Origin: Sulfurovum sp. | GTDB lineage: Bacteria; Campylobacterota; Campylobacteria; Campylobacterales; Sulfurovaceae | NCBI GenBank assembly: GCA_027068485.1 | Contig: JAMOSB010000014.1 | Coordinates: 1 to 58,384 of the forward strand | Direction of reading: 5' to 3' | DNA: 58,384 bases | Shown here: piece after piece, positions 22,607 to 38,797 of the stretch | Position numbering within the stretch: the stretch's first letter is position 1 | Layout of the letters: each line of letters begins with the position of its first letter | The notes under the pieces: model-generated | The model's input: the letters and a program-made list of their open reading frames with translations, nothing else | The model's database searches: none | Told to the model about the DNA's origin: nothing | Program-made: the position numbers and the translations under genes

Positions 22607-24132
22607 TAGGCACCTCCTTGATTTGATTTAGCGACGATGATCAACTCTTTCGCCTCTTTTGTAATCGCTTTTTCATCCATAAACTCAAGCATCGCTTTGA
22701 CAGAGTTATCAATAGGCTCAAGTACAGGTTTAGGATAGACACCCAACCAGATTACAATCGCAACCAAAGGAATGAGTGACCAAGTCTCTGTTGGCGTAAG
22801 GTCTTTGAGTACCTTGTTTGCCTCATTGGTGACAGGTCCAAAGAATGTTCTCTTATAGATAGTGAGCATATAGATCGCTCCAATAATAATCGAAGTCCCT
22901 GCAAGGAGTGTCATCACGGGAGAGATTTGATAGAATCCAAGGAGTACGAGGAACTCCCCAACAAATCCAATCGTAAGTGGCAATCCAACAGAAGCCATCA
23001 ACATAATACCAAAGATCACAGCGTACTTAGGCATCACTGCTGCCAAGCCACCAAACTCATCGAGCATCTTAGTGTGTCGTCTATCGTAGATCATCCCCAC
23101 AAGCATAAAGAGCGCCCCTGAGACGATACCGTGTGAGAGCATCTGGAAGACTGAACCACTGATACCCTCTGCATTCATCGCAAAGATACCCAACATAATG
23201 ATACCCATGTGTGAGACAGATGAGTAGGCGATAACCTGTTTGATATCTTTTTGTGCGTAGGCGACCATCGCCGTATAGATAATCATAATAATCGAGATCA
23301 CAGCAATCGGTGTAATCATCATCACCGACGCATCAGGAAACATCGGAAGTGAGAAGCGTACAAATCCATAAGTACCCATCTTGAGCAGAACCGCAGCAAG
23401 AATCACCGAACCAATCGTAGGAGCCTGTCCGTGTGCATAAGGCAACCAAGTGTGGAATGGAAACATCGGTACCTTGATCGCAAACCCAAAGAAGAACGCT
23501 CCAAAGAGCCAGAGCTGATACTCAACAGGCAAGACCAACGCATACCAATCTGTAATCGCAAAGCTCCATACTCCTGTGAGGTTGTGGTAGATATAGGCAA
23601 CAAACAGCATACCAACCAACATAATCAATGACCCTGCAAAGGTGTAGAGGAAGAACTTCACTGACGCGTAGATACGAAGATTACCACCCCAAGCCCCAAT
23701 GATATAGAGCATTGGAACAAGTGAAAGCTCCCAGAAGAGGTAGAAGATAATGGCATCAAGTGCTACAAAAACACCCATCATCGTCATCTCCAAAAAGAGC
23801 AAGGTAATAATCATATTTTTAATATTCTCCGTGATACTCATACTAATCATACCAATCAGCGTCATCAACGCTGCCATGATAAGGATAAAGAGTGAGATAC
23901 CATCTACCCCAAGGTAGTAGGAGACACCAAAATCAGGAATCAATGGAATCATCTCCACAAACTGCATCCCTGCATTACTCGCATCAAAACTAACCCATAA
24001 CCAGATAGAGAGCAAGAACTCAATAGCTGCTACGGTGATACCGTACACCCTTGCACTCTCTTTATCTACAATAAATCCCAACAATCCTGCGATTGCTGGG
24101 AAAAATACCAATATACTTAATATATTATCCAT
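22606..24132 (-). CDS. nuoM: NADH-quinone oxidoreductase subunit M
   Basis: The 508-residue antiporter-like membrane subunit of complex I. Key parts visible are FWELSLVPMLYIIGAWGG (conserved Glu in helix 5), AFFFGFAIKVPMFPFHTWLP (Lys in helix 7) and DIKQVIAYSSVSHMG. About fourteen helices fit the family. It lies between nuoL (11-base gap) and nuoN (one-base overlap). Confidence 0.97.
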   Translation of the reverse strand: MDNILSILVFFPAIAGLLGFIVDKESARVYGITVAAIEFLLSIWLWVSFDASNAGMQFVEMIPLIPDFGVSYYLGVDGISLFILIMAALMTLIGMISMSITENIKNMIITLLFLEMTMMGVFVALDAIIFYLFWELSLVPMLYIIGAWGGNLRIYASVKFFLYTFAGSLIMLVGMLFVAYIYHNLTGVWSFAITDWYALVLPVEYQLWLFGAFFFGFAIKVPMFPFHTWLPYAHGQAPTIGSVILAAVLLKMGTYGFVRFSLPMFPDASVMMITPIAVISIIMIIYTAMVAYAQKDIKQVIAYSSVSHMGIIMLGIFAMNAEGISGSVFQMLSHGIVSGALFMLVGMIYDRRHTKMLDEFGGLAAVMPKYAVIFGIMLMASVGLPLTIGFVGEFLVLLGFYQISPVMTLLAGTSIIIGAIYMLTIYKRTFFGPVTNEANKVLKDLTPTETWSLIPLVAIVIWLGVYPKPVLEPIDNSVKAMLEFMDEKAITKEAKELIIVAKSNQGGA

Positions 24133-24143
24133 CTATCTACTCC

Positions 24144-26048
24144 TTAACCTAGCATTGCTGAGAAGGCTGCGACTAACAAGAGCAACACGGCACCAACAGC
24201 CATCCAATTTAGATAGTTTGAAAGGTTACCACTCTGCATCCTTCTAGCCCCATCACCACTTTTGTAAAGAAGTTTCGCAATACCATCTACTGTGGCATCG
24301 ACGATCTTCATATCTACCTCTTTCCATAAAATCTCTGAGAGCATCGCATACGGTTTGGTGATGAATGCCTCATAGAACTGAGGAATATAGTACTGGTTTG
24401 CAAGGAGCTGATAGATAAAGCTGTTTTCAAGTGCTTCATCTCTCTTAAGCCCTTTTGCATACTTCTTATAAGCATACGCAATACCACCTACAGCAACTAC
24501 CAAGACAACCAAGCCAAGGAGCCATGCGATGTGGTGTGTATGTTCACTCATATGGTACTCAGGAAGGAGTGTCGTAACAAAATGCTCGAAGCTCCCCATA
24601 CCAAATCCAGCAACCACTGCCAAGAGAGCCAATGGTGACATTGCGATCAATACAAACTTATACATCTCATGGGGGTGGATATCAAACGCTTTGTATCGCT
24701 CATCACCCTCAAAGGTCAAGAAGACTTGTCTAAAGCTATAGAAGGCAGTCATACCTGCGGTAATCACAAGAATTGCCCAGAGTACTAGTGTGCCTTCATT
24801 CCATGCGGTCTCAATAATCGCATCTTTAGAGAAGAACCCTGCAAAGAACGGAATCCCTGCAAGTGCCAAAGATGCCAATCCCATATAGATATAGGTAGGA
24901 CGCATTACTTTTTTGAGTCCCCCCATCTTGAAGATATCAAGCTCATCATGCATTGCGTGCATAACATTCCCCGCACCCAAGAAGAGCAGGGCTTTGAAGA
25001 ATGCGTGTGCCGCAAGGTGGAAGAGTGCGATCCAGTAGGCACCCAGACCCGCCGCCGCAAACATATACCCTAGCTGTGAGAGGGTTGAGAAGGCGATAAT
25101 ACGCTTCAAGTCACGGTTGACTAGCGCCATGGACGCAGCGAAGAATGCTACAAATGTACCGAGTGCTGCGATAAAGTAACTCACCCCAGCGACCTCTTCC
25201 ATCCCAAAGAGTGGGTTGGCACGAATAACCAAGAAGACCCCCGCAGTAACCATAGTCGCTGCGTGAATCAATGCAGATACAGGAGTAGGCCCCTCCATCG
25301 CATCGGTCAACCAAGTGTGAAGTGGGAACTGTGCTGATTTACCCATCGCCCCAATAAAGAGGAAGATAGCCGCAGCATTGAGTACCGAACCACTCAAACT
25401 AGGAAGTGTCTCAAAGACCACATCATACTGAAGGCTCCCAGTGTTCCAGTAGAGGATAAAGAGTCCTACCAACATACCAAGGTCAGCGATACGGTTAACG
25501 ATAAACGCCTCATTGGCTGCCCATGATGGAGAGATAGAGGGATTCTCTTCTCTCGAAACATCCGCTTTGTGATACCAAAATCCAATCAGTAACCATGAAC
25601 AGACACCAACCCCTTCCCAACCAATAAAGAGTCCAGCGAAGTTATCTGACATGACCAAGATCATCATCGAGAATACAAACGCAGAGAGGTAAGAGAAGAA
25701 ACGGTTGAAGCTCTTATCGTGATCCATATACCCAATAGAGTAGATATGTACCACGGTAGAGACGAGTGTCACCACGGTCATCATCGTAACAGAGACTTGA
25801 TCCACCAAGAATCCAAATGGAATACTCAAGTCACCCGCACTAATCCAATCCATCATCGTAACATGGATTGGGGTACCTGTCGATACAATGTGAGACGCAA
25901 GTGTCGCCGAAGCCAAAAAGGAGATAAAGAGCAGTGTTGAAGCGATCACCCCAACAAATGTCTGCCGCTTACTCATCCCAAAGAGTGCTGAGAAGAGTGA
26001 ACTAACCAACGGAGCAAAAAGTGCTATATATACTAAATTTTCCATCAT
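24144..26048 (-). CDS. nuoL: NADH-quinone oxidoreductase subunit L
   Basis: The 634-residue subunit is the distal proton-pumping unit and carries the long lateral helix that spans the membrane arm. Visible motifs include FIGWEGVGVCSWLLIGFWY (helix 5 Glu), GKSAQFPLHTWLTDAMEGPT (helix 7 Lys) and DLKRIIAFSTLSQLGYM. The C-terminal 120 residues fit the lateral helix and a last membrane anchor. The ATG at 26048 overlaps the nuoK stop by one base (TAATG); a second ATG follows directly. Confidence 0.97.
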   Translation of the reverse strand: MMENLVYIALFAPLVSSLFSALFGMSKRQTFVGVIASTLLFISFLASATLASHIVSTGTPIHVTMMDWISAGDLSIPFGFLVDQVSVTMMTVVTLVSTVVHIYSIGYMDHDKSFNRFFSYLSAFVFSMMILVMSDNFAGLFIGWEGVGVCSWLLIGFWYHKADVSREENPSISPSWAANEAFIVNRIADLGMLVGLFILYWNTGSLQYDVVFETLPSLSGSVLNAAAIFLFIGAMGKSAQFPLHTWLTDAMEGPTPVSALIHAATMVTAGVFLVIRANPLFGMEEVAGVSYFIAALGTFVAFFAASMALVNRDLKRIIAFSTLSQLGYMFAAAGLGAYWIALFHLAAHAFFKALLFLGAGNVMHAMHDELDIFKMGGLKKVMRPTYIYMGLASLALAGIPFFAGFFSKDAIIETAWNEGTLVLWAILVITAGMTAFYSFRQVFLTFEGDERYKAFDIHPHEMYKFVLIAMSPLALLAVVAGFGMGSFEHFVTTLLPEYHMSEHTHHIAWLLGLVVLVVAVGGIAYAYKKYAKGLKRDEALENSFIYQLLANQYYIPQFYEAFITKPYAMLSEILWKEVDMKIVDATVDGIAKLLYKSGDGARRMQSGNLSNYLNWMAVGAVLLLLVAAFSAMLG

Positions 26049-26350
26049 TATCCCCTCATTTTTGCAAGATCATCAAGATCGAGCGTACCATGTTTTTTGT
26101 ACAATACAATCAAAATCCCCAGTCCAACGGCTACTTCACTCGCTGCAATAGCGATAATAAAGAAGGCAAACATCTGACCTGTCAAATCATTGTAGTAGTG
26201 TGAGATCGCTGCAAATGCGATATTGACCGCATTGAGCATCACCTCTGTTGCGAAGAAAAGCATCAAAAGATTTCTTCGTCGTAACACACCCACCAATCCA
26301 ATAGAGAAGATCAGTGCGGAGACGATAAGGTAGTGAGAAAGACCTATCAT
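26048..26350 (-). CDS. nuoK: NADH-quinone oxidoreductase subunit K
   Basis: The 100-residue, three-helix membrane subunit. It carries the conserved glutamates in the second and third helices (LMLFFATEVMLNAVNIAF and AIAASEVAVGLGILIVLY) that form part of the proton path. It overlaps nuoJ by 4 bases and nuoL by one. Length is normal. Confidence 0.96.
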   Translation of the reverse strand: MIGLSHYLIVSALIFSIGLVGVLRRRNLLMLFFATEVMLNAVNIAFAAISHYYNDLTGQMFAFFIIAIAASEVAVGLGILIVLYKKHGTLDLDDLAKMRG

Positions 26351-26913
26351 TTTTCATCCTTTTGTATCAAGATTTCATCAGCACTCATGTCTTCTGTAAG
26401 ACTCTGATCCATTTTTTTACCTGCGAGGATAATCCCTGCAATCATAGCAACGAGTAGCATCAAGGCAGCGACCTCAAAGGGGATAAGGTACTTCGTAAAG
26501 AGTACAATACCCACATCTTGTGCATTCCCTACCCCTTCATGCATCGGATAGAGTGCGGTGATCGCATCACTATGGATAGGGGCTGCAAACATCAATACCA
26601 ACACCAATGCACTCAAACCACCTAGTAAAAAGACCAACGCGGAATTGGTATTTTTCTCTTTGATATCGCGTGTTGCATCAAAGAACATCATCGCAAATGA
26701 GTAGAGTGCCATAACAGCCCCTACATATGCGATGAGCTGAACGACACCCAAAAAGTCTGCCCCCAAGATAAAGAAAAATCCTGAGATAAGTACCATACCT
26801 GCGGCAAGTGATGTCATAGCGTAGAGTATATTTTTACTCATAACTGTCACAAGGAAAAGCCCTATGGTTAAACCTGAAAATAGATAAAAAGCAACTACTT
26901 CATACATATTCAC
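26347..26913 (-). CDS. nuoJ: NADH-quinone oxidoreductase subunit J
   Basis: The 188-residue subunit has five transmembrane helices, including the conserved helix 3 VVQLIAYVGAVMALYSFAMM with the Tyr/Gly bulge seen in complex I structures. The C-terminal tail (DQSLTEDMSADEILIQKDEK) is polar and probably cytoplasmic. It follows nuoI with a 5-base gap. Confidence 0.95.
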   Translation of the reverse strand: MNMYEVVAFYLFSGLTIGLFLVTVMSKNILYAMTSLAAGMVLISGFFFILGADFLGVVQLIAYVGAVMALYSFAMMFFDATRDIKEKNTNSALVFLLGGLSALVLVLMFAAPIHSDAITALYPMHEGVGNAQDVGIVLFTKYLIPFEVAALMLLVAMIAGIILAGKKMDQSLTEDMSADEILIQKDEK

Positions 26914-26918
26914 TCCTC

Positions 26919-27542
26919 CTAATACGCCAGTGGCGTTTGTTTAATGTTCTCATCAGCATTTGGTGATACTGCACCAAACCCTTGATACTCTTGCTGTAGG
27001 TTCAACTGATCTACAGGGCTTAACATGTCTTCAAAGATAGAGAAACTCGCTCTCTGCTCTGAAGCTGTCTCATAGCGTTGCCCATGGACAATTGCCAACT
27101 CAGGACAGACCTCTGCACAGTATCCACAGAAGATACAGCGTCCAAAGTTGATGGTGTACTCACTCACCTCTTTGCGTTGATTCTCATCATAGCGTGTATC
27201 CATGGTGATACAGTTTGAGATACAGATCTTCTCACACAATCCACATCCGATACAACGATAGTGTCCACTCTCTAGGAGTCGAAGCATATCATGAATCGCA
27301 CGGTAGCGTGGAGAGATAGGCATCTTTTCAAACGGGTACTTCACGGTGTGCATATCATCAGCAAAGAGTGCTTTGACCATCGCCTTCATTACGACACCCA
27401 ATCCTACAAAAAGCTCTCCCTTCACGGTACGCTTTGCAACTTGCTTAAAGCGTTCCATTCCTGTTTGGGGTGAGACACCCACATCGAGTGTTTTGTAGTT
27501 TTGTGTTCCTACATTTCTGTTTTTAAATTGTTCTAAACCCAT
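26919..27542 (-). CDS. nuoI: NADH-quinone oxidoreductase subunit I (2x[4Fe-4S])
   Basis: The 207-residue peripheral-arm subunit carries clusters N6a and N6b. Both CxxCxxCxxxC motifs are complete: CIGCGLCEKIC and CIFCGYCAEVC. Electrons pass from here to NuoB. The first ~60 residues before the ferredoxin part are longer than in E. coli NuoI but similar to other Campylobacterota. It follows nuoH with a 9-base gap. Confidence 0.97.
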   Translation of the reverse strand: MGLEQFKNRNVGTQNYKTLDVGVSPQTGMERFKQVAKRTVKGELFVGLGVVMKAMVKALFADDMHTVKYPFEKMPISPRYRAIHDMLRLLESGHYRCIGCGLCEKICISNCITMDTRYDENQRKEVSEYTINFGRCIFCGYCAEVCPELAIVHGQRYETASEQRASFSIFEDMLSPVDQLNLQQEYQGFGAVSPNADENIKQTPLAY

Positions 27543-27551
27543 ACTTTCTCC

Positions 27552-28580
27552 TTATACCATCATCACAATACCAGTAATCACAACATTGATTACTGCAATT
27601 GGCATTAAGACTTTCCAACAGAGCCACATCAACTGATCTGGTCTGACATGAGGCCATGCTGCTCTTACCCATAACATCAAGAAAAAGAAGAATGCTACTT
27701 TTAAGAGTATCGCTAATCCAAGTGTCCCTTCACTGTACCCACCAAGGAAAACCACCGCTGCAATGATAGAGACCGTAATCATATTGGCATACTCTCCAAT
27801 GAAGAACATCCCCCATCGCATACCAGAGTACTCTGTTGCATATCCAGAGACAACCTCTGCTTCATGCTCAAGTAGGTCAAAAGGTGTTCTGTTGGTCTCC
27901 GCAAATCCTGCGATCAAGAAGAGGACAAATGCGACTGGCTGTTGCCAGATGAGCCACGAGGTAATCCCTCCTGCTTGATAGCTATTGAAGTCAACAAAAG
28001 AGAGTGATCCTACTAGCATAATAGGTGCAAGGATAGAGAGTCCTGTAACGACTTCATAACTCAAGAACTGAACTGCTGTTCTAGCTGAACCGATAATCCC
28101 CCACTTGTTTGCTTGTGACATCCCCGCAAGGAGTGGACCATAGAGTCCCGCTGCCATCATCCCAAGCACAAACAAAATCCCGATATTGAGATCCGCTGCA
28201 ATAGCGGGTACGAAAGTATCACCAAGCAGTGGTATCCAACTAGGGATAGTAAAGTCTGGGAATACAGGCACCGCGGCAAGAGCGATAAACGCAGTCGCTG
28301 CAGTGATAATCGGTGCAACCATAAAGATAAACTTATTGGCATTTTGTGGGACGATATCCTCTTTGGTAAAGAGTTTGATACCATCAGCCGCAAGTTGTAG
28401 CAACCCATAAGGTCCAACATGAAGTGGTCCCTGTCGTCGTTGCATCCAAGCGAGTACTTTTCTCTCAATAAATGTACCAAACCCAGCAATAGCAGAGATA
28501 ATTGCTAAGATGAGGATGGCTTTGATAAGCACACCTACCCATGTGACATGTGGTAGGGTTTCTACGAGTGTTGTTTCCAT
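27552..28580 (-). CDS. nuoH: NADH-quinone oxidoreductase subunit H
   Basis: The 342-residue membrane subunit joins the two arms and forms the quinone entry chamber. It has about eight helices. Signature stretches are FIERKVLAWMQRRQGPLHVG, the loop NRTPFDLLEHEAEVVSGYAT (charged quinone-site loop) and WVRAAWPHVRPDQLMWLCWK. It follows the second nuoG by one base. Confidence 0.97.
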   Translation of the reverse strand: METTLVETLPHVTWVGVLIKAILILAIISAIAGFGTFIERKVLAWMQRRQGPLHVGPYGLLQLAADGIKLFTKEDIVPQNANKFIFMVAPIITAATAFIALAAVPVFPDFTIPSWIPLLGDTFVPAIAADLNIGILFVLGMMAAGLYGPLLAGMSQANKWGIIGSARTAVQFLSYEVVTGLSILAPIMLVGSLSFVDFNSYQAGGITSWLIWQQPVAFVLFLIAGFAETNRTPFDLLEHEAEVVSGYATEYSGMRWGMFFIGEYANMITVSIIAAVVFLGGYSEGTLGLAILLKVAFFFFLMLWVRAAWPHVRPDQLMWLCWKVLMPIAVINVVITGIVMMV

Positions 28581-28581
28581 A

Positions 28582-31041
28582 TTACACCTTTCTCATTGTT
28601 ACTGTTTTGTATCTTGACTCACCAAAGAGAGTATAGACATCTTTCGCACTCTTAAAGTCTGATAGCTTGGTGATATCCCCTTCTATTTTGGGATCAACAA
28701 TCACATCTACTACCAGTGTCCCATTCTCAAAGACAATCTCGACCTTCTCACCTAGGCTCTCTGCTTTGGCAGGAGAGGCGTAGAGTCCAAAGGCTTCAAA
28801 GATCTCATGAGACTTATCGGTAAAGTCATTAAACTGTCGTGCAGGGTTACATCGGTAGACAATCTCACCCTCAAGCACTAGGCTCGTATCAAACTTCTCA
28901 ATCGTAGGCACAGCGACCTCACTACTCTCAACTTCAAGGAGGTAGCCACGATTCTCAACTCCCTCATTGGTATAGCCATTAGGTAGATCATCAAACGCAA
29001 CCGCTCTATACCCTTTAGCGGTAGGAAGTAGTGGTGTCCAGTCGATCGTTTCGCGTTGTCCCTCAATCAATACAGAGACGATATCATTGAGTTCGTACCC
29101 ACCATAGCTCAGTGCTGCATTGGTTGGAACAACACGCTTAGACATGGTAGTAAATGTCCCCTCTTGTTGGTTCATCGCTGGCATATCCAAGTCACCCTCT
29201 CCAAGAGCAGAGAGTCTAAAGTCACCATTCTCATTATACCCAATGGTGTACCCCTCTGCCTCATCATCAAGATCACAGATAAGAGCAACACCCAAGGCAT
29301 TGGATTTGGGTGGTGTCATCACCACATCAATCGTCGTACACTTCTCAATAAGCGCAATAAGGTGTGCGATATTTTCTGCTTTCTCATGATAGTAGAGATC
29401 CTCTCCTACCATCAGTGAGAATGACTCTTTTTTCTTCATCATCTTCGCAAAAGTCTCCTCAAACTTCTCCGCGTCACCACCAAGAAGCTCAACAAGTCCA
29501 TTACGCTCAACACTCACCTCTTTGGTTACCATCTCTGGTACCTTTTTGGTCACCTCTTTAGACTCACCTGTCTCCTCATCTACCACCGTCTCAGTGACGG
29601 ACTTCATCACCTTCTCTTTGATAGTTTTGGTCTCACTGCTCTTGAAGCTTGCGATATAAGCACTCACCTCTTCAGGTAGACGCATCGCATCTGCAAAGAG
29701 ATCAAGGAGGAGATAGAGTGCTGCCTCTTCGAGTCCTACTTTGTGTGTAAAGGAGAGGAGACTCTTCCCAAAAGTAGGGATAAGTGTATCCCCTACAGGG
29801 TGGAAGTAGAGTCCTGCCCCTTTATTCATCTTCTGTACATTATTGAAAGCGTACTTAAGCCCTGGGCTATCATTACGCATCGCTGTACCAATCGCTATCA
29901 CAAAATCACTCTGCTTCATAATCGTATCGGTATCGGTTGTATAGAGGCTATTGCCTGATGCGTCTTGATAGTATCCCAAGAACTTCTGGAACTTGCGTAC
30001 CTCAGGGTTGTAGAGCTTAATCCCCATCTGCTCCTTGAGACGCTGAAGCATTAGTGCCTCTTCATTGGTAATAACAGAGTTGAAACGCACTGTTTTTGCT
30101 TGTTTGAACGCTGCGACTGCCTTATCAAACGCCTCGGGGTCTTTGGTGACTCCACGGTTCTCAAAGTCATACGCAAAACGCGCCGCACCATCAAGGGAGA
30201 CATAGTTCCACTCATTAGTGACACGGAAGATCTTCTTCTCTCTATCCTCAATGGAGGCAGGTTTCGTCTCATAGAAGATCTGGAATCCATCAGAGGAGTG
30301 GGCAGATACCGCAGGGATGCGTGAGAGATCCCATGCGTTGGTGGTGTATTGGAAATCACGGCTTACCAATGCCCCGACAGGACAGACTGCCGCACACTCA
30401 CCACAATCAGAACACTCTGTAGACTCTGTCCCATTACTTGGAGCAATGACCGATTTTTGAAGCTTGTTCCACATCGCATAGGCATCTTTTGGCATACTTG
30501 CCTTATACTCCTTATCGAGTGCTTCTCCTCCGCGTTTGGTTGTCTTGAGTGCCGCGTCACCAATCATATCTTTACAGACAGTAACACAGCGTTCACAGAC
30601 GATACAGAGTCCTGCATCGTAGTGAAGTACAGAACTCCAATTTTTGTTCTCTCTTTTGGTATCGGGGATACGATAGGATTGAGAATCTACTCCCAACGCT
30701 AGGGTGTAGTTTTGGAGTTCACACTCCCCACTCTTGTCACATACACCACACTGAAGTGGGTGGTTGACATCATAGACCTCCATAATCGCTCGACGCTCTT
30801 GAAGAATTGTCGGTGTATCCACCGTGATCTCCATCCCCTCTTTGACTTTGGCATTACACGCATAGACCTGCTTACCATCAGCCTCTACCAAACAGATACG
30901 ACACGCGAGTGTTGGTGAACATCTTGTTAGGTAGCAGATTGCTGGAATAAAAACATCATTAGCACGCGCTGCATTGAGAATATATTCACCCTCATTAACT
31001 GCAAACTCTTTGCCATCAATTTTGATATTGACTTTACTCAT
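28582..31041 (-). CDS. nuoG: Second NuoG-like subunit, with an extra [4Fe-4S] motif and no N7 site
   Basis: The 819-residue paralogue keeps the [2Fe-2S] site (C36, C47, C50, C62) and the N5 site (H94, C98, C101, C107). Two complete four-Cys ferredoxin motifs follow: CIVCERCVTVC (C146-C156) and CSDCGECAAVC (C210-C220). The first NuoG has only one cluster there. In contrast, the N7 position reads AVSAHSSDGF with no cysteine. Residues ~467-513 are a highly charged K/E/V/T-rich insert absent from the first copy. The shared C-terminal signature DLDDEAEGYTIGYNENGDF shows common ancestry. It presumably sits in the electron-input arm and may give a second wiring route. Two bases separate it from the first nuoG. 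Confidence 0.9.
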   Translation of the reverse strand: MSKVNIKIDGKEFAVNEGEYILNAARANDVFIPAICYLTRCSPTLACRICLVEADGKQVYACNAKVKEGMEITVDTPTILQERRAIMEVYDVNHPLQCGVCDKSGECELQNYTLALGVDSQSYRIPDTKRENKNWSSVLHYDAGLCIVCERCVTVCKDMIGDAALKTTKRGGEALDKEYKASMPKDAYAMWNKLQKSVIAPSNGTESTECSDCGECAAVCPVGALVSRDFQYTTNAWDLSRIPAVSAHSSDGFQIFYETKPASIEDREKKIFRVTNEWNYVSLDGAARFAYDFENRGVTKDPEAFDKAVAAFKQAKTVRFNSVITNEEALMLQRLKEQMGIKLYNPEVRKFQKFLGYYQDASGNSLYTTDTDTIMKQSDFVIAIGTAMRNDSPGLKYAFNNVQKMNKGAGLYFHPVGDTLIPTFGKSLLSFTHKVGLEEAALYLLLDLFADAMRLPEEVSAYIASFKSSETKTIKEKVMKSVTETVVDEETGESKEVTKKVPEMVTKEVSVERNGLVELLGGDAEKFEETFAKMMKKKESFSLMVGEDLYYHEKAENIAHLIALIEKCTTIDVVMTPPKSNALGVALICDLDDEAEGYTIGYNENGDFRLSALGEGDLDMPAMNQQEGTFTTMSKRVVPTNAALSYGGYELNDIVSVLIEGQRETIDWTPLLPTAKGYRAVAFDDLPNGYTNEGVENRGYLLEVESSEVAVPTIEKFDTSLVLEGEIVYRCNPARQFNDFTDKSHEIFEAFGLYASPAKAESLGEKVEIVFENGTLVVDVIVDPKIEGDITKLSDFKSAKDVYTLFGESRYKTVTMRKV

Positions 31042-31043
31042 TA

Positions 31044-33302
31044 TTACCTCCCTGCCCTTTTAAAATCTAACCTGCTAAATCTATAAGAGGATAGCAAAGC
31101 CCCACTTAATCCCTTGTCATAAGTAGGGTTGAGTGCTATGGTCCCTTTCATAGATGTATCAATCTTAAACACACGATCAAACACTACACCATCAATAGTA
31201 TAGATAATCTGCTCGCCATCTTGTAGCTTGGTTGCCGTAGCAAACTGCTCAGATCCAACCAAAAAGCTCTCAGACTTCAACGCATCACACTTCGCGGTAA
31301 AGGCAGAGAACTGCTCTGTTGGATTACACTGATAGACAACTGCTCCATCAAACCCATCAATCTCGGTGATCTCTTCAAACTTTCGATCAACAGATGCCTT
31401 GATGCGTCTCAAGGGATAGCCACGATACTCTCGTCCAACACTATCAAAATAGTCAGGAAGATCATCAAAGGCTACAGATTGGAACCCTCGCTCTTGAGGA
31501 AGCAGTGGTGTATAATCAATCGTATACTCCTCCACCACCCCGAGGGCATTGGCGATATCATTGAGCGTGTATCCCCCATACGGTAGGGCAACATGCATCG
31601 GTACCACACGCTTATTGAGTGTGGTGAGTGTCCCCTCTTGTTGGTTCATCGCTGGCATATCCAAATCTCCATCACCCAAAGCACTGAGCGTAAAGTCAGC
31701 AGGGACATTATACCCTACCGTATACCCCTCAGCCTCATCATCAAGATCACAGATGAGTGATATACCCATAGCATTACCCGCAGGGGGTACACAGACGACA
31801 TTAAAGTCTGCAAAAGTCTCAAGGAGTGCTAAGATTTTGGCAATCTGCTCTGCTTGAGGATGGGCATAGAGATCACTCCCAATCACCAACGAGAAGCCAG
31901 ACTTTTTCTGTAGAGAGTTGGAGAGCATCTCTAGCTCTTCCTCCCCTACATTACTCTCCGCACTCAGATTACCGATATCGAGATCATCAAGGAAGCTACG
32001 CACCCCTTTGGGGAGCTCTACAGCCTGAAGAAGTTCAGAGACGAGTAGTGCAGCTACCCCCTCTTCACTCCCTGCTTCATACTTGATAAACTGTGTGACA
32101 ATCCCACTAAGCTCTCGATCTTCAATCGGATGCATATAGGCAACTCTTGCACGATGCCACTTACTTGCCATATTGATATGGTACTTCACCGAGGGAGCAT
32201 CATCATTGAGTCGACTCCCCATCACAATAATCACACGAGACTGAGCAATCTCCTCTAAGCTTCCACTATAGAGGCTCTTGCCTGTTACGCTACTATACGC
32301 GTCCATAAACTTCTGATAGGCTCGTGCTTCATGAGAGATGAGACGGTACCCCTTAGTCTGCTTGAGTGTTTGAAGTATCATCGCCTCTTCATTGGAGATT
32401 TGACTACTAAAGTGGATACTCTTTGCCGTTTGGAACGCCTCGATAGCGTGGCTAAACGCCTCTTTATCTTGGGTGACTCCTTCATTGGCATAGTCAAATC
32501 CATAGCGTCCCGCTCCACAAAGATTGGTAAACTCATAGGCATTAGTGACACGGTAGATCTTGTTGTTTTTGACCTCATAGGTCATCTGACATCCACCACC
32601 ACAGTGAGGGCAAGCACTCGGTATCTTCTCTAGCTCCCATGCGTTGGTCGTATATTTGAAGCTGGTATCGACCAATGCCCCAACAGGACAGACCGCCGCA
32701 GCTTCACCCAATGAGGCGTAGTTCTGCTCAGGTTTGGTGTTGACAATCGTGGATCCATACCCACCAAACTTCACCTTGAGTGCCTCATCTCCTGTGATCT
32801 CAGTGGAGACGCGTACACACTTCTCACACATAATACACAAAGAGGGGTCATAGGAGACATATCCCCAGTTTTCGATAGGACGGTGCTGATCACGGGCAGT
32901 AAATGCCTGCTCAGCTACACCAAACTCCATTGTCTTATTTTGAAGATCACACTCTCCACTCTTGTCACACACCCCACACTCAAGTGGGTGGTTGACATTG
33001 TAGAGTTTCATGATATTTTGACGCTCTTGATGAAGTGCTTGGTTGTTGGTACGGATCACTGCCCCATCAGTTGCTTTCTCTTGACACGAAAGGATCATCC
33101 CCTCTACACCCTCGACCTCTACCACACACATACGGCACGCCCCAATAGGCTGTACCTTGGTGAGGTAACACATGGTAGGGATATAGACCTCATGCTCTCT
33201 TGCAATCTCAAGAATAGTCTTACCAAAAGTGCTTTGAATTTTCTGACCATCAATTGTTACAGTAATTGCTTTACCTTTATTGATAGAATTGTGTTGACTC
33301 AT
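31044..33302 (-). CDS. nuoG: First NuoG subunit, with N1b, N4, N5 and N7 sites
   Basis: The 752-residue subunit has all four standard cluster sites: [2Fe-2S] N1b (C45, C56, C59, C73), N5 (H105, C109, C112, C118), N4 (C156, C159, C162, C205) and N7 (C231, C234, C238, C262, in CPHCGGGC and NLCGAGRYG). The C-terminal part is a molybdopterin-oxidoreductase-like fold without cofactor, as in all NuoG. It begins 13 bases after the NuoF/GltD fusion and is followed by a diverged second nuoG. It would carry electrons from the input module towards NuoI. Confidence 0.93.
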   Translation of the reverse strand: MSQHNSINKGKAITVTIDGQKIQSTFGKTILEIAREHEVYIPTMCYLTKVQPIGACRMCVVEVEGVEGMILSCQEKATDGAVIRTNNQALHQERQNIMKLYNVNHPLECGVCDKSGECDLQNKTMEFGVAEQAFTARDQHRPIENWGYVSYDPSLCIMCEKCVRVSTEITGDEALKVKFGGYGSTIVNTKPEQNYASLGEAAAVCPVGALVDTSFKYTTNAWELEKIPSACPHCGGGCQMTYEVKNNKIYRVTNAYEFTNLCGAGRYGFDYANEGVTQDKEAFSHAIEAFQTAKSIHFSSQISNEEAMILQTLKQTKGYRLISHEARAYQKFMDAYSSVTGKSLYSGSLEEIAQSRVIIVMGSRLNDDAPSVKYHINMASKWHRARVAYMHPIEDRELSGIVTQFIKYEAGSEEGVAALLVSELLQAVELPKGVRSFLDDLDIGNLSAESNVGEEELEMLSNSLQKKSGFSLVIGSDLYAHPQAEQIAKILALLETFADFNVVCVPPAGNAMGISLICDLDDEAEGYTVGYNVPADFTLSALGDGDLDMPAMNQQEGTLTTLNKRVVPMHVALPYGGYTLNDIANALGVVEEYTIDYTPLLPQERGFQSVAFDDLPDYFDSVGREYRGYPLRRIKASVDRKFEEITEIDGFDGAVVYQCNPTEQFSAFTAKCDALKSESFLVGSEQFATATKLQDGEQIIYTIDGVVFDRVFKIDTSMKGTIALNPTYDKGLSGALLSSYRFSRLDFKRAGR

Positions 33303-33315
33303 CTTATACCACCTA

Positions 33316-35325
33316 TCATACTGCTACCATCGAGATATAGTAACAACGCATGCATCGCTCTGCTTCGCTCATTGCTTCCTCTCCCGTGAAGCCTAAGTTG
33401 ACCTCTTTATTGTTTGTCTTCCGCTCCTCTACCCCAAGCTTTTCACTCTCTGCTCGTGGTAGTCCAGGCATCCAACCCGTAATCTTCTCTTTTTTATCGT
33501 AGACTCTTAAACGATTGAGGTGATCTTCCATAATCTCATCATCTAGCAGAGTACACTTACCATCATAGATATAACGGCTAATCACCGAAGCTGCTCTTCG
33601 TGCCTGTCCTACCGCATTGACAATCGTCATGGGTCCATACTCACAATCACCCGCAGCAAAGAGTCCCTCACGGGAGGTCATATAGTCTTTACCATTGGTA
33701 AGGATAGAGTTCCATGAGGTCATCTCTATATTCCACTCCTCTGGCAAGATCTGTGTATCGAGTGCTTGAGAGACCGCAGGGATAAGATAGTCACATGCTA
33801 TCTCAAAATCCCCATCTTCAATCTTGACCAGTTGTGCACGCCCACCATTAGGATCAGGGACAAGTTCAAACTTATTGACCTTGAGCTTGGTAATCTGCTC
33901 CCCATCATCATAGATCTCTTCAATCGCGGAGTGGAAGATAAACTCAACCCCCTCTTCGACAGCTTCATGATACTCTTCATAGGTCGTATTACGAATAATC
34001 GTCTTCTCATCACGACGGTAGAGCATAATCACCTTTTTGGCACCCTCACGAATAGAGCAACGCACCACATCCATAGAGGTAAATCCACCCCCAACACAGA
34101 CGACTGTCTTACCCTTGAGTTCGTTAGAGGCAGGAGATCCTATCTGATACTTATGCCAGAGGTTTACCTTATCTAGCATATCAATCGCACCCCAATATCC
34201 ACCCATTTTTGGGTTCTCATTGGCTGCACGCACCTTCTTGGAAAGTCTTGCTCCAAATCCAAGGAGGATCGCATCATACTCCGCTTCAATCTCTTTGAGT
34301 TTGGCTGCATCGACACGACAGTTGTTGGTGATACTCACCGCTTCCATCTCTAGTACCAAATCGATATCTTTTTGGTACTTGCCAATAGGCATACGATACT
34401 CAGGTACCCCAACAGCAACCTCACCCCCATTGACAGGAAGCTCCTCAAAGATATGAGAAGCGATCCCCTCAAGTGCGAGGTAGTACGCCGCCGTAAGTCC
34501 CGCAGGTCCTGCACCAATAATCGCTACCTTCTTCCCATCATTACGCAAGGGTTTGGGTTCTACAGGGTGAAGCCATGGAAGTTCATGATCGGTCTCATAG
34601 TCTGCTCCTAGACGCTTCAACTCCATAATAGAGATCGGTTCATCTAGGTTGGTACGACGACACGCATCTTCACACGGGTGTGGACAGACACGCCCACAGG
34701 TGTGTGCCAATGGCATCGTCTGGCGTGTCGCAGCAAGAGAGTCGGTAAAGAGCATATCTCGTACCCCCTCAATATACGCAGGGATATCGACATGTGCGGG
34801 ACACATATCGGTACAAGGAGCCGTCACCTTGGCGATATAGTTGATATCTCCTTGGTAGTGCTTGGAGGGGACTTGTGCATCGATACAGTAGTCAAACTGC
34901 TCTTTATAGTGCTCCATCAAATCCAAAATCGGCTTGGGTACGGTCTTTCCGATCTCACACTTAGAGGTGTTCATCATCGTACTAGAGATCTCTTTGAGGT
35001 GGGCGATATCATCATGTGAACCTGCCCCCCGTGCAATCTTATCGAGTAGATCATAGAGGATCCGTCCACCCCATCGTCCAGGGGTACACCGACCACACGC
35101 CTCAGAGTACTCTTGATACTGTGCCGCATACTTGTTTGCCAACTCTACCGCATCGATATCTTCATCAAAAATCGCAACACCATCCCACCCTATAAAGGCT
35201 TTGGCATCTCTATCGCCATGGTAGGTTTCAGGTAACTTAAAAGTGGATTGACTCAACTCGTCAAGAGGTTTACCGCGGTTATCAATAAACTCATCACGCC
35301 AAGTAGAGAATACTATACCTGACAT
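33316..35325 (-). CDS. NuoF-like [Fe-S] domain fused to GltD-like FAD/NAD(P)H oxidoreductase
   Basis: 669 residues in the nuoF place. Residues ~40-145 match the C-terminal iron-sulfur domain of NuoF: ACGRCTPGRWGG holds C77 and C80, and C123 follows in SKCEIGK. The third N3 ligand is Gly83 instead of Cys. The FMN/NADH Rossmann part of NuoF is absent. Residues ~165-260 form the GltD-type double-cluster domain (CTDMCPAHVDIPAY, CGRVCPHPCEDAC). Then come an FAD-binding GAGPAGLTAAYY (271), an NAD(P)-binding VGGGFTS (411) and the FAD closing motif GLFAAGDCEYGP (~554). A tail CMRCYY ends it. The layout suggests an alternative flavin input to complex I using NAD(P)H or another donor; this is inference. 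It overlaps the upstream small gene by one base. Confidence 0.88.
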   Translation of the reverse strand: MSGIVFSTWRDEFIDNRGKPLDELSQSTFKLPETYHGDRDAKAFIGWDGVAIFDEDIDAVELANKYAAQYQEYSEACGRCTPGRWGGRILYDLLDKIARGAGSHDDIAHLKEISSTMMNTSKCEIGKTVPKPILDLMEHYKEQFDYCIDAQVPSKHYQGDINYIAKVTAPCTDMCPAHVDIPAYIEGVRDMLFTDSLAATRQTMPLAHTCGRVCPHPCEDACRRTNLDEPISIMELKRLGADYETDHELPWLHPVEPKPLRNDGKKVAIIGAGPAGLTAAYYLALEGIASHIFEELPVNGGEVAVGVPEYRMPIGKYQKDIDLVLEMEAVSITNNCRVDAAKLKEIEAEYDAILLGFGARLSKKVRAANENPKMGGYWGAIDMLDKVNLWHKYQIGSPASNELKGKTVVCVGGGFTSMDVVRCSIREGAKKVIMLYRRDEKTIIRNTTYEEYHEAVEEGVEFIFHSAIEEIYDDGEQITKLKVNKFELVPDPNGGRAQLVKIEDGDFEIACDYLIPAVSQALDTQILPEEWNIEMTSWNSILTNGKDYMTSREGLFAAGDCEYGPMTIVNAVGQARRAASVISRYIYDGKCTLLDDEIMEDHLNRLRVYDKKEKITGWMPGLPRAESEKLGVEERKTNNKEVNLGFTGEEAMSEAERCMRCYYISMVAV

Positions 35326-35873
35326 TATTTAGCCTTTGATTTTCTAGGAGTGGTTTTTCGTGCAGGTGCTTTTTTATCGCTCTGCTTCGTTGCTACCTCT
35401 TTTTTGGCTGTTTGCTCTGCCTCTTTGGCTTTGGCTTCCTCTTCCGCTTTGAGGGCGGCAGCTTTTGCCTCCTCCTCTGCTTTAGCTTCTGCCTCTTCTT
35501 TGGCTTTGAGTTCCGCTTCCTCTTTGGCTTTAGCCTCTGCTTTTGCCTTCGCTTCTGCTTCCTCTTTTGCCTTCAACTCTTCTGCTTCAAGAGCAGCTAC
35601 TCTATCGGCTTCCAACTTAGCTATGCGTGCCTGCTGTGTCGCTTCATCGACTTTTTTGACGACAATCGTCCAGTCCACTTCATTGAACTTCAAGGAGTTC
35701 ATCAAGTCGTGTCCTGCAGCACGCACCACATCTGCGGACTTCTGAATCGCAGAGAAGTCTCCCACCTCAAAGAGGAAGATCCCTACCTCGCCTACAGTAA
35801 GACCCTTTTCGATAAGTTCAACCATTCTGTCATAAAAATCATCTTTGAGATGTCTTAAATCATATCTTTTCAT
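35325..35873 (-). CDS. Small complex I accessory protein in the nuoE place, with A/K/E-rich tail
   Basis: The 182-residue protein has a globular N-terminal domain (~1-85) beginning MKRYDLRHLKDDFYDRMVEL. From residue ~85 the tail is almost only Ala, Lys and Glu in short repeats (KAEAKAKEEAELKAKEEAE) and ends in a basic PARKTTPRKSKAK. The tail would form a long single helix or coiled coil. NuoE cysteines for N1a are missing. Campylobacter has a similar small non-NuoE protein between nuoD and nuoG, so the N-terminal part probably belongs to that family. A link between the NuoF/GltD fusion and the Q module is a guess. Confidence 0.8.
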   Translation of the reverse strand: MKRYDLRHLKDDFYDRMVELIEKGLTVGEVGIFLFEVGDFSAIQKSADVVRAAGHDLMNSLKFNEVDWTIVVKKVDEATQQARIAKLEADRVAALEAEELKAKEEAEAKAKAEAKAKEEAELKAKEEAEAKAEEEAKAAALKAEEEAKAKEAEQTAKKEVATKQSDKKAPARKTTPRKSKAK

Positions 35874-35884
35874 TGCTCTTCTCC

Positions 35885-37114
35885 TTAACGGTCAACTTCA
35901 CCAAATACGATATTGGTCGTACCAATAATCGTAACAACATCTGCTAGATAGGTTCCTACAAGAAGCTCTTGTAAGAGTCCTGTATGGAAGAAGCTAGGGG
36001 CTCTACACTTCAATCGATACGCATAAGGCTCACCCTCTGACTTGATATAGAACCCAAGCTCACCTTTGGGTGACTCTGTTGGGACATAGACTTCTCCTTT
36101 AGGAGGTCTCATCCCTTGTGTAACAAGTACAAAGTGTTGCATCAACGCATAGTTTTGCGTCATAATCTCCTCTTTGGGTGCGGAGATATACTGTGGTGCG
36201 TGTGCCATCAACTGTGGCTCAGTATCTTTATACATGCGTGTGAGTTGTCTGATGATCTTAGTCGATTGAACCATCTCCTCCATATAGATCATAAATCGCC
36301 CATAAGAGTCACATCGTTCACTGATAGGGATATCAAAATCAAGCTCAGAGTAGAGTTCGTATGGCTCCTCTTTTCGGATATCATACTTGATACCAGATCC
36401 TCTAATCATCGGTCCACTACAGCCCCAAGAGAGAGCATCTTCAGCAGAGATAACCCCTACATCCTCAAGACGCATCTTCCAGATACGGTTTTCGTTGAGC
36501 AAGGCACCATAGGTATGCTCTACCTCATAATCTACCTTATCACAGAAAGTCAAGACATTGGTCAACCAATCTGTAGGGAGATCCAGTGGCACCCCACCAA
36601 TACGCACAGCAGAGTGTGTCAATCTCGCACCACAGTAGTCCTCCATCAAGTCCATCGCAAACTCTCGCTCACGGAAAGCATAGAGAAAGACCGACATCGC
36701 ACCAACATCGAGTGCATGGGTCGCAACAAAGAAGAGGTGGGAGATGATACGGTTCAGCTCCAAGAGCATGGTACGAATCACCTGTGCGCGTCGTGGTGCT
36801 TCAATACCTAAAAGCTTCTCCACTGCTAACGCATAGGCGTAGTTATTTGAAGTAGAGGCGATATAGTCTAGTCTATCGGTTGTAGGCAAGAACTCATTGT
36901 AGGTCATATTCTCTGCCATCTTCTCGATACCACGGTGAAGGTATCCAATATCTGGATAGGCTTTGACGACCTGTTCACCCTCTAGCTCAAGTACCAATCT
37001 CAACTGTCCGTGAGCTGAAGGGTGCTGAGGACCAAAGTTGATAACCATTGTGTTGTCTTCACGCTCAAAATTGAGGTTTTCAAAAAATGGGGTTAATTTA
37101 TTTGGTTGTTGCAT
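35885..37114 (-). CDS. nuoD: NADH-quinone oxidoreductase subunit D
   Basis: The 409-residue 49-kDa-type subunit forms the quinone pocket with NuoB and NuoH. Conserved pieces include [20 protein letters not shown] with the quinone-site His, [19 protein letters not shown] and the C-terminal [20 protein letters not shown] and [12 protein letters not shown]. Length matches the family. It stands 8 bases after nuoC as a separate gene, not fused as in E. coli. Confidence 0.97.
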
Positions 37115-37122
37115 AGTTGTCC

Positions 37123-37908
37123 CTACCTTCTCTCATCTAATTGTTTGCCACTCTCTTGAGTATAGTCTACCAATACGGTTTCACTATACGCTATAGGGTT
37201 CTCTTTTTCACCTTCAGAGATATCGGCTCCAAATGGTACTTCATATCCTACGCGTGAGAAACGCTTGGTATCATATCTATCAATGCGTGACTGATCTCTA
37301 TTTTCTGGTCCAATGACATCTCTATACTCTTTACCAAAGATCTTATCTACCTCATACCATGAGGCAAACTCATCTCCTATCATAGGGTAGGTTTTGAGTA
37401 GTGGATGTCCCTCCCAATCATCAGGCATAATAATACGCTTGAGGAAGGGGTGGTTATTGACCTTGATACCAAACATATCAAATATCTCACGCTCTGCAAA
37501 GTTGGCAGACTTAAAGAGTGGTACCACACTCTCAATCGCCTCACCCTCTTTGATACGACAGACCACTCTCACACGCTTAGCTTCCGTGATATTGAGGAGT
37601 TGATAGAAGAGTTCAAACTCCCCATCTTGTGCGAGGTAGTCCACCGCACTCTGCTCTGAACACTGTGTATAACCACACTGCTCTTTGAGTGTTTGAAGTA
37701 CTGCAAAGTTTTCAGTAGACTCAATCTGAAGGACGAGTTGTCCCACTTCGATATAGCACTCTTTTGCTTGGGTACCTATAGCCTCTACTACCGAAGCGAA
37801 GTGACTCCCCTCTGCTACCGCCTCTCTTGGTACGCGTGGAGCAACCCAAAATCTATCTGTATAGTAAGAGTGTTTTTGTACATTATCTTTTGGTGTATAT
37901 TTTCTCAT
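37123..37908 (-). CDS. nuoC: NADH-quinone oxidoreductase subunit C
   Basis: The 261-residue 30-kDa-type subunit. The signature [20 protein letters not shown] followed by [18 protein letters not shown] is complete. The N-terminal ~30 residues and the C-terminal acidic tail are extra relative to minimal NuoC. The start touches the nuoB stop by one base. Confidence 0.96.
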
Positions 37909-38426
37909 TACACTAACCTTAGGTTCTGTTTTGTGTTGTTGTTCATATTGGCAGACTCTCTTCTAATCTTCTTTTGAAGCATCATCATCGCGTACTGAAG
38001 TGTCTCTGGGCGTGGAGCACACCCTGGAAGATAGATATCTACAGGGATAATACGATCAACCCCTTGGACCGTTGCGTAGGTGTTAAACATCCCTCCTGTA
38101 TTGGCACAAGACCCCATAGAGATGACCCACTTTGGCTCAGTCATCTGATCATAGAGTCTGCGTGCAAACTCAGAGTGTTTTTTGGAGAGTGTCCCTGCCA
38201 AAATCATCACATCGGCTTGTCTTGGAGAGGCTCTAAAGATTGTCCCCATTCTATCGAAGTCATAACGCGATGCTCCCGATGCCATCATCTCAATCGCACA
38301 ACATGCGAGACCATAAGTGAGTGGCCAGAGTGAGTTTGACCGCCCCCAGTTTACGAGTTTGTCGACCGATGTAAGTGCTATCGGTAATCCTGCCGCACTG
38401 GCGTAATTTACTTGATGCTGTGCCAT
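37908..38426 (-). CDS. nuoB: NADH-quinone oxidoreductase subunit B (cluster N2)
   Basis: The 172-residue subunit carries N2, the last cluster before quinone. The adjacent Cys pair in [10 protein letters not shown], the Cys in [10 protein letters not shown] and the Cys in [11 protein letters not shown] are all present. Its start overlaps nuoA by 19 bases, a longer overlap than elsewhere in the operon. Confidence 0.97.
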
Positions 38427-38797
38427 TCAAGTGCTCCTTTCTTCCATGCATATACGAAACCAATCGCAAGTAGTAAAATAAATAGTATCATCTCAGTAAA
38501 ACCAAACCAACCCAACAACTTAAAGTCGATTGCCCATGGGAACATAAAGATGATCTCTACATCAAATAGAATAAACAGAAGTGCTATCAAGTAGAACTGT
38601 ACGGAGATGGTGTTTGGCTGTTTTGTTACCTCTGGACCACACTCGTAGATACTAAGCTTAAGCTTTTCTGTGTCAAGTTTAGCCATCTTTCGGCTAACTA
38701 GCCTTGCTAAAAATAGCGTAGCGGGAAACGCTACACCAGTCAAAGCAAATAGAACAAACACACCAAAATATGGATGATCTGTTATTACATGAGTCAT
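38408..38797 (-). CDS. nuoA: NADH-quinone oxidoreductase subunit A
   Basis: The 129-residue membrane subunit has three helices. It carries the conserved loop [13 protein letters not shown] with the Cys of the flexible quinone-site loop, and the second-helix stretch [15 protein letters not shown]. It is the first gene of the complex I operon, with a dyad-rich promoter region upstream. Confidence 0.95.

Follow-up and report, generated by a model that had tools for sequence, protein, structure and literature searches.

The two tandem nuoG genes of this Sulfurovum sp. operon encode what are, on the evidence of their sequences, ancient and non-interchangeable paralogues. They probably have separate jobs in one complex I, the second protein (NuoG-b) being the true NuoG and the first (NuoG-a) forming, together with a NuoF-GltD fusion, an input module placed in series with it. 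Complex I is usually taken to hold one NuoG and one linear chain of clusters from N3 to N2.

The operon and its two NuoG proteins

The window, i.e., the whole stretch of 58,384 nucleotides that was analyzed, carries a complete complex I operon on its - strand, in the order nuoA, nuoB, nuoC, nuoD, NuoE-position protein, fusion, NuoG-a, NuoG-b and nuoH to nuoN. The genes and the sites of interest within them are:

35885..38797, - strand: nuoD, nuoC, nuoB and nuoA (domain and profile matches, gene order)
38408-38797, - strand: nuoA, first gene of the operon
35325..35873, - strand: NuoE-position protein, 182 aa, Campylobacterota-type PF16514 (NuoX-like; Pfam match)
33316..35325, - strand: NuoF N3-domain/GltD-like fusion, 669 aa (domain and profile matches)
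31044..33302, - strand: NuoG-a, the first NuoG, 752 aa, with N1b, N5, N4 and N7, extra [4Fe-4S] ligands lost (domains, alignment)
32688..32837, - strand: NuoG-a residues 156-205, N4 ligands C156, C159, C162 and C205 retained, second-cluster ligands replaced by S166, Y195, L198 and A201 (59-sequence alignment)
32517..32612, - strand: NuoG-a residues 231-262, N7 ligands C231, C234, C238 and C262 (PF04879, alignment)
31782..32270, - strand: NuoG-a residues 345-507, first segment surviving as a stand-alone protein in fusion-less genomes (profile match, 19/19)
31059..31391, - strand: NuoG-a residues 638-748, second surviving segment (profile match)
28582..31041, - strand: NuoG-b, the second NuoG, 819 aa, with N1b, N5 and a 2[4Fe-4S] domain, N7 lost (profile, alignment)
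30382..30606, - strand: NuoG-b residues 146-220, double ferredoxin motif with 8 Cys, complete in 76/77 NuoG-b (alignment)
30190..30312, - strand: NuoG-b residues 244-284, degenerate N7 site (AVSAHSSDGF ... D284; alignment)
21116..28580, - strand: nuoH, nuoI, nuoJ, nuoK, nuoL, nuoM and nuoN (H, I, J and L matched; K, M and N by ORF order and size)

The nuoG pair is flanked by the fusion and nuoH, only a few bases separate the two genes, and a Shine-Dalgarno-like GGAGG directly precedes the NuoG-b start. Both proteins matched the Campylobacterota NuoG model NF006305/PRK08493 (cut-off 591), NuoG-a with 833 bits and NuoG-b with 1066 bits, and both show the traits of a NuoG, namely an N1b [2Fe-2S] site, a His-ligated N5, an N4 ligand set and a location in a nuo operon. 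A search of the genome detected no further NuoG, no canonical NuoF elsewhere and no StnB-type NuoF. The PF16514 NuoX-like protein in the NuoE position is a feature of the epsilon-Nuo (NuoXY-type) enzymes; a stand-alone NuoY/Cj1574c-type protein is absent from the operon, and the fusion and a full-length NuoG-a stand in its place.

The sequence-only reading had described two tandem nuoG genes with different cluster sets, and its open reading frames, coordinates and site assignments were all borne out. The ligands of NuoG-a are C45/56/59/73 for N1b, H105/C109/112/118 for N5, C156/159/162/205 for N4 and C231/234/238/262 for N7. The positions lost are Cys 4-7 of the ferredoxin motif, i.e., exactly the four ligands of one cluster, leaving the N4 set. 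NuoG-b has C36/47/50/62 (N1b) and H94/C98/101/107 (N5), followed by the 8-Cys 2[4Fe-4S] domain (C146/149/152/156 and C210/213/216/220), and all four of its N7 ligands are replaced (S246/S249/F253/D284). The N7 ligands, which vary among NuoGs and are not required in them, are therefore present in NuoG-a only. The same S-S-F-D pattern recurs in another, complete genome from the genus (L035) and at five further named loci, which excludes chance or sequencing error as the origin of the N7 loss in NuoG-b. Purifying selection is strong on both genes, with dN/dS of 0.04-0.12 in pairs with unsaturated dS.

AlphaFold2 models were obtained with pLDDT 83 and pTM 0.84 for NuoG-a, and pLDDT 86 and pTM 0.83 for NuoG-b. 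The best PDB matches of both models were the alpha subunit of NAD-dependent formate dehydrogenase and NuoG, over most of their length (E 1e-25 to 1e-38), and both NuoGs are accordingly modeled with a molybdopterin-oxidoreductase-like fold in their C-terminal part. A long two-stranded beta-hairpin is predicted for NuoG-b residues 467-514 (about 29500-29643) and is absent from NuoG-a. An insert of similar length occurs in most NuoG-b, fusion-less loci included, and is absent from a few fusion loci.

The fusion lacks the FMN/NADH-binding domain of NuoF: only positions ~292-409 of TIGR01959, the N3 domain, are matched, and a GltD/NfnB-like FAD/NAD(P)H oxidoreductase domain replaces the rest. At the N3 site (C77, C80, G83, C123; motif CxxCxxG...C) the third Cys is Gly in 59/59 sequences, leaving three of the four Cys of a usual N3, and the cluster may thus have three Cys ligands or be of an unusual type. 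The GltD/NfnB-like part bears an invariant Tyr-Arg-Arg after the nucleotide-binding glycines. It lacks the usual N-terminal CxxC, and another CxxC ('EAxRCMRC', residues 658 and 661), invariant in 59/59 at the extreme C-terminus, may provide the ligands that the first GltD-type cluster would otherwise lack. A role of the fusion as the small subunit of the cell's glutamate synthase is unlikely, as a separate GltD-like gene is present (G000:C18).

Distribution, age and cluster sets among relatives

The survey of the fusion covered Campylobacterota genomes and yielded 60 fusion loci and 20 fusion-less ones, from which 59 full NuoG-a and 77 NuoG-b were aligned. A full-length NuoG-a accompanied the fusion at every fusion locus checked. 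The order NuoE-like protein, fusion, NuoG-a, NuoG-b, nuoH was found at 58/60 fusion loci; of the two exceptions, one lies at a contig end and one is a split operon. Among named loci with enough flanking sequence, the fusion and both NuoGs occur together in 51/53; in the two exceptions, L156 and L164, NuoG-b lies elsewhere in the genome. Such split operons, in which the part from nuoABCD to the fusion and NuoG-a is apart from NuoG-b, were seen in G249 (L164) and in G218/G250 (L049, L156). The apparent single-NuoG fusion loci (L049, L080, L083, L089, L094, L156, L164) were traced to contig ends, a split NuoG-b (G167) or split operons; for L080 (G105), where the contig ends at the locus, this explanation is tentative. 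The expectation that fusion genomes also possess both NuoGs thus proved true in every checkable case (about 60 genomes), and the observation named beforehand as refuting it, a fusion genome with a single NuoG, was not found among them.

At L083 (G167:C1:478680-481002), in a one-contig genome, NuoG-b is encoded by two ORFs of 315 and 538 aa, through fission or frameshift, and the split separates the cluster domains from the C-terminal domain. At L093 (G212) the fusion (962 aa), NuoG-a (1046 aa) and NuoG-b (1012 aa) are far longer than elsewhere, and the N3 and GltD parts of the fusion are widely spaced.

NuoG-a and NuoG-b have the same domain order and are 39% identical. In separate trees of the N-terminal and C-terminal halves, each paralogue formed one clade (100/100) spanning the sampled families, from which it follows that the duplication is older than the divergence of these families. 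The claim that the two genes are not simple redundant copies is therefore upheld, by the age of the duplication, by co-retention and by the finding, described below, that the fusion and the cluster-bearing part of NuoG-a have repeatedly gone missing together. The reason originally given for it, the different cluster sets, does not stand. A recent duplication providing gene dosage, with copies now drifting apart, could be read from the tandem position and common domain order; given the 39% identity, the family-spanning clades, the purifying selection on both genes and their retention in all checkable fusion genomes, we regard it as excluded for practical purposes. One stretch (NuoG-a ~506-570 vs NuoG-b ~577-640; LICDLDDEAEGYT..LSALG.GDLDMPAMNQQEGT) is far more alike than the rest of the two proteins, through shared constraint or gene conversion; it falls in a part absent from the short proteins of the next section.

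Across relatives, the ligands of N1b, N5 and N4 are invariant in 59/59 NuoG-a and 77/77 NuoG-b. The extra ferredoxin cluster has its complete set of four ligands in 52/59 NuoG-a, the losses (L000, L035-L038, L042 and L059) being those of the window's genus, L042 and L059; L059 also lost N7 of NuoG-a. In NuoG-b, N7 is retained in 57/77, and where it is lost all four ligands are lost together. On the nuoABCDHIJK tree, at least four changes were counted for the N7 state of NuoG-b and at least three for the extra-cluster state of NuoG-a. In a second set of named loci, partially overlapping the first, both clusters were present at 28, the extra cluster of NuoG-a alone was missing at 11, N7 of NuoG-b alone at 6 and both at 10. 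Also, in six named loci among L115-L194 the third Cys of the NuoG-a N7 site is His (C-C-H-C), and every one of these loci has also lost the extra cluster.

Most likely, the ancestral NuoG-a and NuoG-b shared the same five sites, N1b, N5, N4, the extra [4Fe-4S] and N7. Since these five-site sets are usual in both NuoGs of most relatives, the contrast seen in the window would result from independent loss in each copy: as the alignments indicate, it is a lineage-specific, late accident in which each paralogue lost one off-path cluster with its four ligands. The idea that different cluster sets denote two different machines was thus rejected, the sets being identical in both copies of most relatives.

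Short NuoG-a relatives in loci without the fusion

Each of the 20 fusion-less loci encodes a single full NuoG, the orthologue of NuoG-b. In 19/20 of them, the gene preceding NuoG-b encodes a protein of 215-351 aa. None of five such proteins tested reached the Pfam cut-offs. The NuoG-a profile nevertheless matched 19/19 of them (E 2e-12 to 1e-65), the NuoG-b profile being far weaker, and showed that they correspond to NuoG-a residues ~345-507 and ~640-750, the cluster domains (1-340) and residues ~509-630 being absent (19/19). At the remaining single-NuoG locus, L113 (G231), no NuoG-a remnant lies between the NuoE-position ORF and NuoG-b.

In the C-terminal tree, all 19 short proteins branched with NuoG-a and not with NuoG-b (100/100), and they did so at several places; for example, remnants of family f6 grouped with NuoG-a of f6 (100/98) and those of f2 with NuoG-a of f2 (97/95). 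A single remnant clade was rejected, moderately, with AU p values of 0.026 and 0.020 in two alignments, the remnants being fast-evolving. The fusion status changed at least five times on the nuoABCDHIJK tree when only well-supported branches were counted. The simplest account starts from an ancestor with the fusion, NuoG-a and NuoG-b; on several occasions the fusion and the cluster-bearing half of NuoG-a would have disappeared, and the same C-terminal segments would have been spared every time. Fusion loss showed no correlation with loss of N7 in NuoG-b in 5 independent pairs.

By synteny, i.e., a position between the NuoE-position gene and nuoG, and by the homology of its relatives rather than of the Cj1574c sequence itself, the remnant would be Cj1574c/NuoY. 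This suggests that the small and poorly understood protein at the NuoY position in the Campylobacter/Helicobacter enzyme is a leftover of the first NuoG copy. In C. jejuni, Cj1575c and Cj1574c replace nuoEF, according to PMC4178425 and PMC6682613, which cite Weerakoon and Olson (2008). From the same work, PMC4178425 reports that Cj1574c mediates electron transfer from flavodoxin (FldA) to complex I.

Long-chain flavodoxins were rarer in genomes with the fusion (31/60) than in the others (172/189), counts that take no account of relatedness; they are suggestive of an association of the fusion with fewer long-chain flavodoxins across the phylum. No long-chain flavodoxin was found by search of the window's genome, which fits a donor other than FldA.

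Proposed electron path, alternatives and known systems

In the arrangement that we favor, NuoG-b would sit at the canonical NuoG place on NuoI/NuoD, NuoG-a would bind NuoG-b via the retained C-terminal segments, and the fusion would dock on N1b of NuoG-a through its N3 domain. Electrons would pass from the GltD-type FAD/NAD(P)H site through the [4Fe-4S] clusters of the fusion to N3, then along N1b-N4-N5 of NuoG-a and N1b-N4-N5 of NuoG-b to NuoI. The extra [4Fe-4S] and N7 would lie on side branches, each of which can be lost separately, and the two copies of the window would differ in cluster set for this reason. In flavodoxin-fed complexes the outer module would be dropped, the NuoG-a remnant staying at the input end. 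Because they are lost together, the fusion and the cluster domains of NuoG-a probably form one input module; the persistence of its C-terminal segments beside NuoG-b after cluster loss makes it probable that NuoG-a and NuoG-b are joined in one complex. The C. jejuni NuoG, an orthologue of NuoG-b, runs together with NuoC/D on native gels (PMC7717971), and the structure of StnC shows a NuoG chain fed by GltD/NADPH (PMC10482914). The chances appear to us about even that the full scheme holds, i.e., a series wire of at least nine Fe-S clusters from a GltD-type NADPH site via two NuoGs, an outer module repeatedly dropped, and NuoY as its cluster-free remnant. Weighed against a series reading were Gly83 in the N3 site of the fusion, the fast evolution of the remnants, the moderately low AU p values, the locus L113 and the split loci L164/G249 and L156/G218. 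Also, the conservation of N1b, N4 and N5 would be equally expected if the two NuoGs acted in parallel.

To our knowledge, a complex I wire of nine or more clusters has no precedent. The sequence-only reading had proposed either such a longer wire containing both NuoGs or two alternative input arms, and of these the former is favored here. In the latter case, each complex I might hold either NuoG-a plus the fusion (NADPH) or NuoG-b plus flavodoxin/ferredoxin, swapped according to conditions. Both paralogues do have full N1b-N5-N4 chains, NuoG-b alone serves complexes lacking the fusion, and the separate loci of the two genes in G249 and G218 would permit separate regulation. No part of NuoG-a should then survive loss of its clusters and of the fusion, yet its C-terminal piece stays beside NuoG-b in 19/20 loci, and the positional equivalent of this piece in C. 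jejuni reportedly matters for electron entry (PMC4178425). The nuoG genes are, moreover, otherwise adjacent and only a few bases apart. We thus consider alternative arms unlikely, and the longer wire is preferred because a piece of NuoG-a remains with NuoG-b after cluster loss, its C. jejuni counterpart reportedly being required for electrons to enter.

The fusion and NuoG-a could instead constitute a soluble NADPH enzyme of the StnC/Nfn type, separate from complex I and sharing only its transcription. GltD plus NuoG is indeed the architecture of StnC (PMC10482914), and NuoG-a matched the StnC chain 8oh5_C with E 2.3e-32. However, the genes are embedded between the nuoE-like gene and nuoG-b/nuoH in nearly all loci, the remnant devoid of cluster domain stays in complex I operons, and the StnB-type NuoF is missing from the window's genome; such an enzyme is rather improbable in our opinion. 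A further possibility is that NuoG-a is mainly a structural adaptor, the electrons of the fusion going straight to NuoG-b or via only some of the NuoG-a clusters. This agrees with a remnant that works cluster-free in the flavodoxin-type complex and with the tolerance of NuoG-a to cluster loss (the repeated changes of its extra-cluster state, the N7 loss in L059). The invariance of its N1b, N5 and N4 ligands in 59/59 sequences, needless for a pure adaptor, makes this very doubtful.

If the series arrangement is true, two NuoGs with a GltD-type input, conserved as they are, would constitute a distinct electron-entry module for complex I. In these vent and sediment autotrophs, which fix CO2 by the reductive TCA cycle, the module could also run backwards and make NADPH, for which specificity is putative. 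The remnant reading would give the NuoY (Cj1574c)-position protein of Campylobacter/Helicobacter relatives an origin, in a second NuoG, and would open the question of flavodoxin entry to structural tests and to mutants of a defined interface. Also, independent single-cluster losses in sister chains provide a natural experiment, in which N1b, N4 and N5 appear needed, and the extra cluster and N7 optional.

Our literature search retrieved no description of a tandem NuoG or of a NuoF-GltD fusion; subscription papers lay largely outside this search and reports may exist. Neither a structure nor biochemistry of a two-NuoG enzyme was found in the literature searched. Reviews of Campylobacterota complex I describe NuoXY instead of NuoEF and leave a second NuoG unmentioned (PMC6682613, PMC4178425).

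Among known systems, epsilon-Nuo (NuoXY type; C. jejuni cj1566c-cj1579c) resembles the window's operon in its plan, in the PF16514 protein at the NuoE position, in a NuoG of the NF006305 type (corresponding to NuoG-b) and in the lack of a canonical NADH-binding NuoF. It differs in that the place of NuoY is held in the window by the NuoF-GltD fusion and by a second, full-length NuoG; the NuoY-position protein is homologous to C-terminal segments of this second NuoG. StnC of the Stn transhydrogenase (Sporomusa ovata, 8OH5) likewise has a GltD/NfnB-like NADPH-FAD module on a NuoG-like cluster chain (PMC10482914). It is, however, a single polypeptide feeding a bifurcating NuoF-like StnB, with no membrane complex I, whereas in the window GltD is fused to the N3 domain of NuoF and followed by two NuoGs, all as separate genes. 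The canonical NuoG/Nqo3 of E. coli and T. thermophilus shares N1b, N5, N4 and the fold with both proteins, and N7 with NuoG-a, which in the window's genus came to have the canonical set once the extra cluster was lost; the canonical NuoG is present in one copy per complex and lacks the extra ferredoxin cluster kept by NuoG-b. In the alignment, the 8-Cys 2[4Fe-4S] domain with N1b and N5 is also found in Aquifex aeolicus NuoG (7q5y) and in the N-termini of the NADH-dependent [FeFe]-hydrogenase HydA and of NAD-dependent formate dehydrogenase alpha subunits. The Aquifex-type set matches that of the ancestral NuoG-a and NuoG-b, but A. aeolicus has a single NuoG, and its N7 is kept, whereas NuoG-b of the window has lost it.
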